Of a stretch of DNA of 64,000 bases, positions 30,903-43,355 are shown piece by piece. Made by a program: the position numbers and the translations under genes. The notes under the pieces were generated by a model, which searched no databases, had not been told where the DNA came from, and saw only the letters and a list, made by a program, of their open reading frames with translations. The DNA comes from Brasilonema sp. UFV-L1 (GTDB lineage: Bacteria; Cyanobacteriota; Cyanobacteriia; Cyanobacteriales; Nostocaceae): assembly GCF_012912105.1 (NCBI RefSeq), contig NZ_QMEA01000012.1, forward strand, positions 1-64,000. The letters run 5' to 3'. Each line of letters begins with the position of its first letter. Positions within the stretch are counted from its first letter, which is position 1.

Positions 30903-31193
30903 TCAAGCAGCTAAGGGTTGCAATTGTTTCGTCAGAAAGTTGGTGATAAGCATTGCAATGGTTTCACCGTCTTCCTCAAGAGCAAAATGTCCTGTGTTAA
31001 GCAAGTGGAATTCAATATTTTTCAAATCCCGTAGGTAAGGATAAGCACCATCGGCAGGAAAAATCTGGTCATTCTTGCCCCAAACGACTAATGTTGGAGG
31101 TTGATACTTGCGGAAGTACTCTTGCCATTGGGGATACAACGGTGGATTAGAACCGTAGCTATAGAACAGCGCCAACTGAATGTCACTATTACC
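30903..31193 (-). pseudogene. 3' fragment of an alpha/beta hydrolase
   Basis: The C-terminal ~97 residues of the hydrolase encoded at 33667-34536 are repeated here ([11 protein letters not shown] to TKQLQPLAA), with a few substitutions. The His motif (TGHFALEE) and the acid motif (GKNDQIFP) are present, but the nucleophile half is absent. The homology stops at about 31193, where the 3' end of an ABC exporter gene on the other strand begins. Confidence 0.88.
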
Positions 31194-31292
31194 AAAAAGG
31201 GAGTTATCGCTGAACGCGGAAATCATTTGGATTTGTTGCGGCAAAAAGGTTTGTACTGGTCATTGTATCAAAGGCAGCAGGCAAATATCTGA
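31194..31292 (+). pseudogene. 3' fragment of a HlyB-like ABC exporter gene
   Basis: The last ~31 codons match the 3' end of the exporter gene at 26190-26280 (shared protein tail [14 protein letters not shown]), with silent differences at several third codon positions. So it is an older or paralogous copy, not a fresh duplicate. No start or upstream part is present; it abuts the hydrolase fragment. Confidence 0.88.
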
Positions 31293-31342: not shown

Positions 31343-33187
31343 ATGCCGACCTATCGATCCAAAACCTCCACCCAGGGACGCAATATGGCCGGTGCCCGCG
31401 CACTCTGGCGCGCCACCGGAATGCACACTGCGGATTTCGAGAAGCCAATCATTGCGATCGCCAACTCCTTTAGCCAATTCGTACCCGGCCACGTTCACCT
31501 GAAGGATCTGGGCCAATTGGTGTGCCGTGAGATTGAAGCCGCCGGTGGTGTCGCCAAGGAATTCAACACCATCGCAGTGGACGATGGCATCGCTATGGGC
31601 CATGACGGGATGCTCTACAGTCTGCCCTCGCGCGAGATCATCGCCGATTCAGTCGAGTACATGGTCAACGCCCATTGTGCCGACGCCCTGGTCTGCATTT
31701 CCAACTGTGATAAAATCACCCCCGGTATGTTGATGGCAGCCCTGCGTCTCAACATTCCCGCAGTATTCGTCTCCGGCGGTCCCATGGAAGCTGGCAAGAC
31801 GAAGCTCTCGGAGCACAAACTGGACTTGGTGGACGCCATGGTGGTTGCCGCAAACGACACTATCAGCGACGAGGTTGTCGAAGAATATGAGCGTTCTGCG
31901 TGCCCGACCTGTGGCTCTTGCTCCGGCATGTTCACCGCCAACTCAATGAACTGTCTAACCGAAGCCATCGGTCTGGCTTTGCCAGGCAACGGCACCGTGC
32001 TTGCGACCCATTTCGACCGTAAGGATCTGTTCCTCAACGCCGCGCGAACCATTGTCAGCATTACCCGCCGCTACTACGAGCAGGACGATGAATCGATACT
32101 ACCACGCTCCGTGGCCAGTTTCAAAGCGTTTGAAAATGCCATGATGCTGGACATCGCCATGGGCGGTTCCACCAACACCATTCTGCACTTGCTGGCCGCC
32201 GCCACCGAAGCTGATGTCAATTTCACCTTGACCGACATTGATCGCCTCTCGCGCAAGGTTCCACAACTGTGCAAGGTAGCACCCAACACACCCCAATATC
32301 ATATCGAGGATGTCCACCGTGCCGGCGGCATCCTCAGTATTCTCGGGGAGCTGGATCGTGCCGGACTGCTCCACACGGACGTGCCGACAGTCCACAGTAA
32401 AACGCTGAAGGAAGCGCTCGCTCACTGGGATGTTATGTGTACCGATGACGAAGCCGTCCACACCTTCTTCAAAGCCGGTCCTGCGGGTATTCCAACTCAG
32501 CAAGCTTTCAGTCAATCGACCCGGTGGCCCTCACTCGATCTGGATCGGGAAAACGGCTGTATCCGCCGCCTCGAAAACGCCTACAGCACCGAGGGCGGAC
32601 TTGCTGTGCTATACGGCAACCTAGCTGAGCGCGGTTGTATTGTCAAGACCGCAGGCGTAGACGAAAGCATTCATGTGTTTGAAGGTCGGGCGCGCATTTA
32701 TGAAAGTCAGGATGCCGCTGTCAAAGGAATTCTTAGGGATGAAGTGGAACCAGGCGACGTGGTGATCATTCGCTATGAAGGTCCGCGTGGTGGGCCTGGT
32801 ATGCAGGAAATGCTCTATCCAACCAGTTACCTTAAATCCAAGGGTCTGGGCAAGGTTTGTGCATTATTGACCGACGGCCGCTTCTCAGGCGGTACTTCGG
32901 GACTCTCGATTGGTCATGCCTCTCCGGAGGCGGCAGCGGGCGGCAACATTGCTCTGGTCAAGGACGGCGATCGCATCCGGATCGACATCCCCAATCGCAG
33001 CATCAATGTGGATCTATCGGCGGAGGAATTAGCCAACCGTCGTGTTGCAATGGAAGCGAAGGGCAAAGATGCCTGGAAGCCTGCGCTGCCCCGGCAGCGT
33101 CGGGTGAGTGCGGCGCTCAAGGCTTATGCACTGCTGGCGACTAGCGCGGATACTGGCGCGGTACGAAACCTGAAAATGCTTGAGTAG
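31343..33187 (+). CDS. ilvD: Dihydroxy-acid dehydratase, proteobacterial type
   Basis: Dehydrates 2,3-dihydroxy-isovalerate and its methyl homologue in valine/isoleucine synthesis, using an Fe-S cluster. The 614-residue length is the long form typical of gammaproteobacteria (cyanobacterial enzymes are near 560). Cluster cysteines: C122 in [10 protein letters not shown] and the [11 protein letters not shown] run (C187-C193). [20 protein letters not shown] is the C-terminal signature. The region [22 protein letters not shown] is an insert typical of the long form. GC content is well above that of its neighbours, yet it already carries HIP1-like GCGATCGC sites, suggesting acquisition followed by some residence. 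Probably a second ilvD; the native one would be elsewhere. Confidence 0.94.
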
Positions 33188-33666
33188 AGAAATACGTAGA
33201 CACAAAAACGAGGGTTGTGTCGCTTGCAACAGATCAATGACGAGAAGGCAGAAGTACGTGCAGCAGAAGTGACAAGTGAAACCGTTAACCTAAGCATGGG
33301 AGTCACCCCCCATGCTCGGCTTCAGAAGTCTAAGGGTTACGCTGAGTCCCAAGGGGACACGCTGCGCGTACCCCTTGCGGGGTTGGGCTTTTACCTAGAA
33401 AAATCTGCCAGCCTCCGGAAAAATCGCCCCATGAAAAGTTGTGATTTTTGTATACCAGTTGACAATTTGGGCGATTTTTCCGCTTCAACGTTGACTCTAA
33501 ACCCGTTACTTGTAATGAGGCACCGCAGTTTTTCCGGGTTTGATGAAACGGGCGCTTTGCGCTTACGCGAACAGCACGCATCTGTTTTTTCTACTTTCTT
33601 CTTATGCACTTATTGTCTTTCCTGTCAATACGTAAGTTGTAATACTGTTCCGGTAGAGAGTGAAAA
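33188..33666. other. Intergenic region, 479 bp, with structured repeat element
   Basis: No gene was seen. It holds a short hairpin GCATGGG-AGTCACCC-CCCATGC (33294-33315), a GC-rich palindromic patch (33345-33385), and the ~120-bp hairpin element at 33398-33516 that recurs at 43031-43150. Confidence 0.6.
33398..33516 (-). repeat. Dispersed hairpin element, copy 1
   Basis: On the minus strand it runs from ATTACAAGTAAC to GGCAGATTTTTC and aligns over its full length with 43031-43150. Its core is a 13-bp perfect stem, GGAAAAATCGCCC with GGGCGATTTTTCC (33417-33429 and 33468-33480 on the plus strand), and the loop contains AATTGTCAACTGG. Non-coding. Confidence 0.75.
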
Positions 33667-34536
33667 TTAAGCAGCTAAGAGTTGCAGTTGTTTCGTCAAA
33701 AAATTGGTAATCAGCAAAGCAATGGTTTCACCGTCTTCCTCTAGAGCAAAATGCCCTGTATTAAGCAAATGAAATTCAATATTTTTCAAATCCCGTAGGT
33801 AAGGATAAGCACCATCAGCAGGAAAAATCTGGTCATTCTTGCCCCAAACGACTAATGTTGGAGGTTGATAATTGCGGAAGTACTCCTGCCATTGGGGATA
33901 CAACGGTGGATTAGAACCGTAACTGTAGAATAGCGCCAACTGAATGTCACGATTTCCAGGTCGGTCAAGTAACGGCTGGTCGATATTCCAGTTGTCAGGA
34001 CTAATCGATTCAGGATTGCGGACTCCGTGAGTATATTGCCATTGGGTTGCATCCAAGGTGAGAAGTTGTCTCAAATTGTCAGCATTCTCAGGTGTACGTT
34101 CTTTCCAATAAGCCTTAAGCGGTTCCCAGAACTCGCGAAGTCCTTCTTCATAAGCATTTCCATTTTGCACAATGAGCGCTTCAACTTGCTCTGGATGCTT
34201 AGCTGCAATTCTATATCCAATTGGGGCACCATAATCCATTAGATAAAGGCTATACTTTTTCAATCCAAGCGCTTCAATAAATTTCTCCATCACCTCAGCC
34301 AAATGATCAAAGGTGTATTCAAACTCATCTACCGTTGGCATCGAACTGTTACCAAAGCCAGGGTAATCAGGTGCAACCAGATGGAACTTGTCGGCTAAAG
34401 CACCCATCAAATTACGAAACATATGCGATGAAGTTGGAAAGCCATGAAGCAAAACGATTGTTGGAGATAGTGGTGAACCTGCTTCACGGTAGGAAATATG
34501 GAGACTATCAATCTCAATTGTGCGATATGTGGACAT
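33667..34536 (-). CDS. Alpha/beta hydrolase with Asp nucleophile (dehalogenase/epoxide-hydrolase-like)
   Basis: The order of motifs is oxyanion [12 protein letters not shown], nucleophile elbow [11 protein letters not shown] (Asp rather than Ser), acid [11 protein letters not shown], and base [11 protein letters not shown]. An Asp nucleophile points to the haloalkane/fluoroacetate dehalogenase or epoxide hydrolase branch. ~290 residues, full length. The frame also has TTG 34545, but ATG 34536 is more natural. It is divergent from a TetR gene with palindromic sites between them, so probably repressed by that regulator. A 3' fragment of the same gene lies at 30903-31193. Confidence 0.9.
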
Positions 34537-34576
34537 AGCTCTCAAATTCTCCTGATTTCAAATTTTTAATATAACG

Positions 34577-42703: not shown

Positions 42704-43030
42704 AGTCGTTTCTTTTTCTCTTACTTTTTCTCAATTTTTAGTCATTAGCGATTTCTCTACAACTACTACCAGAGTTGTGACTTGTAAAAGTATGGCACAT
42801 TTATGAGCTATTACTAAAGACTCTAAATATCAAGTTAGGTATTAATCGTATTACAGACTACAGAAGCTCGGAAATTAATTGCTAATTTGAATTAACAAGT
42901 TTTATTTTTTGACTAATGAATACTGATTAAGAAAAACACATAGGTCAGAACTCCGCAGCTAGAAATGCATCCCTATACTTCCTTGAGGAATTCAAAATAT
43001 ATCCAGAGGATTTGCCGAGTTAGCTACCTG

Positions 43031-43150
43031 ATTACAAGTAACAGGTTTAGAACCAACTTATTGATGGAAAAATCGTTCTAATTGTCAACTGGAATACAAT
43101 GTTAAGATTTTTCACAGAGGCGATTTTTCCTCTGGCTAGGCAGATTTTTC
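43031..43150 (+). repeat. Dispersed hairpin element, copy 2
   Basis: Aligns end to end with the complement of 33398-33516. Shared blocks: ATTACAAGTAAC, GGTTTAGA, GGAAAAATCG, AATTGTCAACTGG, GGCGATTTTTCC and GGCAGATTTTTC, in the same order and spacing. The stem GGAAAAATCG/CGATTTTTCC is kept while the inner pairs have changed. Confidence 0.75.
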
Positions 43151-43355
43151 AATCGTTGTGACTTAACCCTCAAAAATAAATTCTTGAATTCCAACGAGTG
43201 GGTGATAGCGTCCCAACCGCTGTGTCCCCTTGGGACGAGCGCGTGGGCCAACGCCATAGGTGTCTGGTTTTTTCTAAGATTTCACCTCCTGAATCAAGCG
43301 CAGCCTTACATAGAATTGGTATGAGTTCTTTTTTCGGTTATTTTTGAAAAATTTA

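Follow-up and report, generated by a model that had tools for sequence, protein, structure and literature searches.

The 64-kb window, the whole stretch of DNA analyzed here, contains two copies of a hairpin-forming sequence, neither of which lies within a recognized gene. The genes on either side of copy 1, ilvD and an alpha/beta-hydrolase gene, face it with their 3' ends, and the neighbors of copy 2, a GTP-cyclohydrolase II gene and a TPR gene, face it with their 5' ends. These positions agree with a preliminary description of the locus, made from the sequence alone, in which both copies were called non-coding. On its two sides ilvD (31343-33187) is flanked by hydrolase sequences on the minus strand (30903-31244 and 33667-34545), one the complete gene and the other a truncated duplicate that comprises its last ~96 codons, 92/96 of them identical. 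A short GC-rich repeat with TGTCCCCTTGGGAC is found near both window copies (33340-33365 and 43215-43235); a more general palindrome pattern gave no match, and only the shared stretch is noted.

The minus strand of 33398-33516 had been aligned end to end with 43031-43150, and this pairing was borne out in a search of the host genome, where the two copies match with 78% identity (E = 2.4e-17). The pair reaches a local alignment score of 103, and none of 20 shuffled windows scored above 30. Both features that had been singled out, the stem GGAAAAATCG...CGATTTTTCC and the loop AATTGTCAACTGG, are found in copy 1 and copy 2. The coordinates of that alignment, however, cover only the core of each copy, and the whole elements are longer (Table 1). 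Read on its own strand, copy 1 is a 169-bp element that begins at its conserved left end, passes through a long nested hairpin, and finishes at a right end with CC. Copy 2 is a decayed relative of copy 1, with a barely recognizable left end and a still readable right end of a different but known type.

Table 1. Features of the two copies in the window, and copies of the element that carry nested repeats
Feature	Position or locus	Strand	Basis or remark
Copy 1, whole element, including one CC at the right end	33381..33549	-	Junction rule for left and right ends, 35 sites; covariance model match 33398-33549, E = 8e-35 (copy 1 is itself a training sequence)
Target dinucleotide CC beside the left end (GG on the plus strand)	33550..33551	-	CC at 34/35 left junctions
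Left end GTTTCATCAAACCC, unpaired, conserved among copies	33536..33549	-	
Outer stem P1, 5' arm, allele CTGCGGTGCC	33517..33534	-	
Inner stem P3, 5' arm CGGAAAAATCGCCC	33469..33482	-	
Loop motif AATTGTCAACTGG	33456..33468	-	Repeat B inserted here in other copies, in either orientation
Inner stem P3, 3' arm GGGCGATTTTTCCG	33416..33429	-	
Outer stem P1, 3' arm, other allele (reverse complement of TCTGCCAGCC)	33398..33415	-	Chimeric copy
Right end TAGGTAAAAGCCCAACC, last CC mirrors the target	33381..33397	-	
Copy 2, decayed; right end AATCGTTGTGACTTAACC at 43151-43168	~42989..43168	+	Covariance model match 42989-43149, E = 8e-11 (copy 2 is absent from the model)
Copies with repeat B	L007/L008/L006 (host contigs C166, C65, C286), L037, L016/L034, L062, L213, L221		
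Copies with repeat C	L003, L036, L067, L078, L016		

Many further copies of the element, referred to here as A, exist in the host genome, in other genomes of the genus, and in at least four further genera of filamentous cyanobacteria. The host genome (8.3 Mb, 337 contigs) yielded 59 blast pieces, several of them near-identical over the whole length, the best at 1.6e-49 besides the self-match. The left-end pattern has at least 24 exact matches in this genome, versus 0 for a reversed-pattern control. With a covariance model built from 20 copies, 23 loci were identified in the host genome; each of the six other genus genomes also has copies, Scytonema hyalinum, which belongs to the same family as the host, has eight, and two more genera gave weak matches. 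In a scan of one genome per species, exact left ends occur in Brasilonema, Scytonema, Tolypothrix, Rhizonema, and Pelatocladus, and the few matches outside the cyanobacteria look like chance; the covariance model also matched sequences in Scytonema NIES-4073, Tolypothrix campylonemoides, Rhizonema, and Pelatocladus. A copy on a Brasilonema octagenarum plasmid is 94% identical to one from the genus genomes, and several assembly contigs terminate within copies of the element. Some insertion sites are common to several species, and the elements there have diverged (L273/L274/L275 and L277/L280). This indicates that the family holds old insertions besides the near-identical, presumably recent ones. 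The preliminary description recognized no named family, and Rfam, at both gathering and permissive thresholds, matched none in the window and gave only chance matches in five element loci. No description of a ~170-bp element family of this kind was found in the open literature.

The junction rule of the element was drawn from 35 distinct insertion sites. The element starts with G(T/C)TTCA and ends, few variants aside, with CCCAACC. The last two bases of the left flank are CC at 34/35 sites, a count with a chance probability of ~6e-45 for the composition of the window when the sites are treated as independent. The base after the right end is C at 28 sites and G at 7, and never A or T. Other flank positions are not fixed, although A/T is somewhat favored at -4 and T/C at +2. 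The left end GTTTCATC... is unrelated to the inward-read right end GGTTGGGC..., so terminal inverted repeats are absent, and duplication is limited to the ambiguous CC, which can be assigned to neither side. In many copies a motif, GGAAAAATC(T/C)GCC, appears to occur twice toward each end. A preference for hairpin targets found no support (mean z of -0.5 over the 35 sites).

Gene interruptions show that the element moves. In the genome G006, trpG is split by a copy of the element and aligns as two pieces around it; in the congeners G003 and G001 the gene is uninterrupted at the same point. Removal of the element with a single CC left behind restores the reading frame (...FRNDKIT/VEEIRALKPNG..., with the slash at the junction), and there is no target duplication. 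A copy on the Brasilonema plasmid pBOCT2 interrupts a tyrosine-integrase gene, and in Tolypothrix a reading frame interrupted by a copy is restored without it. The ~170-bp hairpin element is a mobile DNA element. A mobile element had been one of two initial readings of the two copies, and the empty trpG site together with a single junction rule over 35 insertions supports it.

The fold of the element is nested. It consists of an outer stem P1 (16–18 bp), which begins 14–15 nucleotides from the left end and ~17–19 nucleotides from the right end, a small side hairpin P2, and an inner stem P3 (14 bp). Among 20 copies from several genera, 88% of the pair cells are standard pairs, and both partners have changed in 14 pairs, of which ten belong to P1. 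In none of 500 shuffles was the pairing or the number of double changes matched, a figure that is not a probability because the sequences are related. Structures slid by one to three columns score far worse, and P1 was recovered independently by RNAalifold. The predicted fold as RNA reaches about -72 kcal/mol per 170 nucleotides in some copies. Covariation is present in the outer stem, where 10/16 pairs of P1 carry compensatory changes; like the many further copies and the lack of an Rfam match, it speaks in favor of the preliminary description. The inner GGAAAAATCG stem, which had been highlighted at first, is indeed conserved but covaries little; most of the covariation resides in the outer GGAAAAA.../...TTTTTC stem.

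P1 occurs in a few block versions, among them CTGCGGTGCC, TCTGCCAGCC, TCCGGCAGCC, and TCCGGCAACC. Because these versions change as blocks, there are fewer change events than changed cells, and the compensatory changes in P1 may stem from copying of arms and not from selection acting on numerous individual changes. The outer arms of copy 1 come from two P1 versions, and 7/10 variable positions are mismatched. Chimeric arms that pair poorly in this region are also found in L006/L047, L066, and L077. Both the chimeras and the block versions would arise if copies exchanged sequence and their arms were later matched to each other again. Two distant matches of the covariance model, L276 in Scytonema NIES-4073 and L281 in S. 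hyalinum, have the same nested P1/P3 layout with different stems (GACAAAGCCGGACAACCTT / ... and GGTCATACCGCCCC / ..., respectively). As judged by reading the sequences, they are perhaps sister families, which suggests a wider class of this architecture.

Two smaller repeats are inserted within copies of A (Table 1). Repeat B (~108–190 bp, GTCTTACACG...GGGGACAATGCG, with a GGCAGCC/GGCTGCC stem) sits exactly at the loop AATTGTC^A in some copies, in both orientations and apparently with a duplication of 2–4 bp, and next to P3 in others. After its 5' stem B has the TYATTAC motif that also occurs in A. Repeat C (CTTCGGG...GACTCACC) lies in A between GCC and T(C/T)ATTAC, and in B at the corresponding position. 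Like A, it follows a CC and ends in CC.

No gene was found inside any of the complete copies, so the enzyme that moves the element would have to act in trans. A search for this mobilizer showed that none of the 12 Y1 transposase genes of the host genome has element ends within 1.5 kb. Each of the five A-bearing genomes searched has IS607 tnpA genes, as do most relatives, and none of the TnpA loci checked carries element ends (12/13 host matches, 8 from congeners, and 30 from five other genomes, the last including several weaker recombinase matches). The mobilizer may be absent from these assemblies, diverged, or of another kind. Several candidates for an autonomous version were rejected. A left end beside a tnpB fragment (C222) looks like a chance juxtaposition, as does a right-end fragment beside an N-terminal tnpB fragment (L085, host C155:58000-62000), within a group II intron-like region that contains a reverse-transcriptase open reading frame. 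Most further matches to a short left end are unrelated sequences, and L152 is a ~396-bp variant of the element without a gene. Matches to the right end only are contig ends, nested copies, or chance. A link to the tyrosine-recombinase trio on pBOCT2 was also discarded, because the copy there disrupts the third of these genes and the trio is not flanked by another. An IS110/bridge-RNA element was rejected because near-identical copies have unrelated flanks.

The target rule matches that of IS607. Elements of this type have GG at their ends and insert at GG, preferably after a further G; they lack inverted repeats and cause no duplications (PMC6188088). Element A has GG (CC on the strand read here) at both junctions, and its target on the bottom strand is (G)GG, with the preceding base being G at 28/35 sites and C at 7/35. 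The published GG insertion rule, taken on the opposite strand, is identical to the junction rule of A (PMC6188088). A non-autonomous IS607-type element, whose ends would be bound by an IS607 serine transposase that exchanges the GG/CC dinucleotide and inserts precisely without duplication, is a tentative possibility that falls short of being probable. It accords with the CC at the left junctions and the right end, with the absence of inverted repeats and duplication, with the presence of tnpA genes in the A-bearing genomes, and with the doubled motif that appears toward each end. However, A has neither tnpA nor tnpB, and the IS607 copies examined (host, congeners, and five further genomes) share neither its ends nor a repeated GGAAAAA end motif. 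Most outer-stem positions past AAAAA vary, unlike those of a protein-binding site. A long hairpin is not a known trait of IS607 ends, so IS607 leaves the conserved fold unexplained.

The anatomy of A matches that of the archaeal PATEs (palindrome-associated transposable elements). The PATEs of Haloquadratum walsbyi lack inverted repeats, have palindromes near their termini, cause no duplication, and serve as hosts for the insertion of small repeats. They have a conserved terminal oligonucleotide and a variable stretch ahead of the palindrome, and they are too short to encode a transposase; their ends match those of IS605-type transposons, with one palindrome at each end (PMC3119063). Each of the structural traits in this description recurs in A, which has no inverted repeats, a palindrome near its termini, no target duplication, a conserved terminal oligonucleotide, a variable stretch, insufficient length for a transposase, and the small repeats B and C inserted inside. 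A HUH (Y1) transposase would in this case recognize a single-stranded hairpin, cut after CC at both ends, and paste the element 3' of CC. Enzymes of this type act on single-strand hairpins. The pairing of the outer stem is maintained despite changes in its sequence, the CC before the left end recurs at the right end, and the host genome has Y1 genes. In contrast to PATEs, the ends of A are unmatched at all 12 host Y1 loci, and a single nested hairpin joins both ends, whereas each end of a PATE or IS605 element has its own palindrome. Known Y1 targets comprise 4–6 nucleotides, so the strict CC/CC identity is not easily accounted for by a Y1 enzyme. REPs, small palindromes that occur dispersed, are presumably moved in trans, and are known from filamentous cyanobacteria, measure 20–40 bp, bear a GTAG or CGTC tag, and are associated with RAYT (Y1) transposases (PMC3733652). 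Element A is ~170 bp and nested, and the alignment has no GTAG or CGTC at the foot of P1. Taken together, a PATE- or REP-like origin is doubtful.

The SMRs (small mobile repeats) of Haloquadratum are free of transposase, have terminal inverted repeats, cause no duplication, and insert into other repeats (PMC3119063). A is likewise transposase-free and without duplication, and B and C resemble SMRs in their insertion places inside A, but A has no terminal inverted repeats. From classical MITEs it differs in lacking both terminal inverted repeats and a target duplication. Short cyanobacterial repeats are a known parallel to SMRs.

A structured RNA had been the other initial reading, and a functional non-coding RNA, a riboregulator or terminator whose dispersal would be incidental, would account for the very stable predicted fold and for the covariation of P1 and P2. 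It is improbable, given that copies occur in unrelated contexts, including within trpG and an integrase gene, that copies at shared ancient sites have decayed, that the outer arms of copy 1 and others are mismatched, and that Rfam gave no match. RNA-mediated spread, in which a reverse transcriptase such as that of a group II intron would copy a structured transcript and template switching would make the chimeras, is very improbable: the host genome has group II intron reverse-transcriptase open reading frames and chimeric arms occur, but recombination between copies accounts equally for the chimeras, no tail or bias toward truncation at one end was noted, and this route is not known to leave a strict CC on each side.

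Copy 1 is very probably a member of a ~170-bp family of transposase-free mobile DNA with a nested hairpin body, moved in trans. A transposase supplied in trans would move the element, which joins its target after CC and has CC as its own last bases. Joining in this way yields a clean insertion, without inverted repeats and without duplication beyond the ambiguous CC. For this enzyme, whose trans action and identity we infer, an IS607-like serine transposase with a 2-bp GG/CC core approaches an even chance; a HUH/Y1 enzyme (IS200/IS605 or REP-type) acting on a single-stranded hairpin is a substantial but lesser possibility, and some other enzyme a small one. Because shared ends with a parent transposon were found for neither system, the element is classed neither as a PATE nor as an IS607 element. 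It is a new family among the transposase-free mobile hairpin repeats, unusual in combining a covarying nested hairpin with a strict core of two bases.

It is also conceivable, though quite unlikely, that a single-stranded DNA (or RNA) form held by the nested hairpin is the substrate of some transposase that also enforces the GG/CC core. If so, this would be a mobile-hairpin mechanism distinct from those of IS607 and IS200/IS605, possibly common to a wider set with different stems and the same nested architecture, as in L276 and L281. Short repeats abound in cyanobacterial genomes; here the exact ends, the two-base target rule, the empty site, and the covarying fold make a candidate enzyme directly testable. 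Insertions of the element can break genes such as trpG, and the presence of B and C within A means that one class of hairpin repeat serves as a landing pad for others, which parallels the description from the haloarchaeon.
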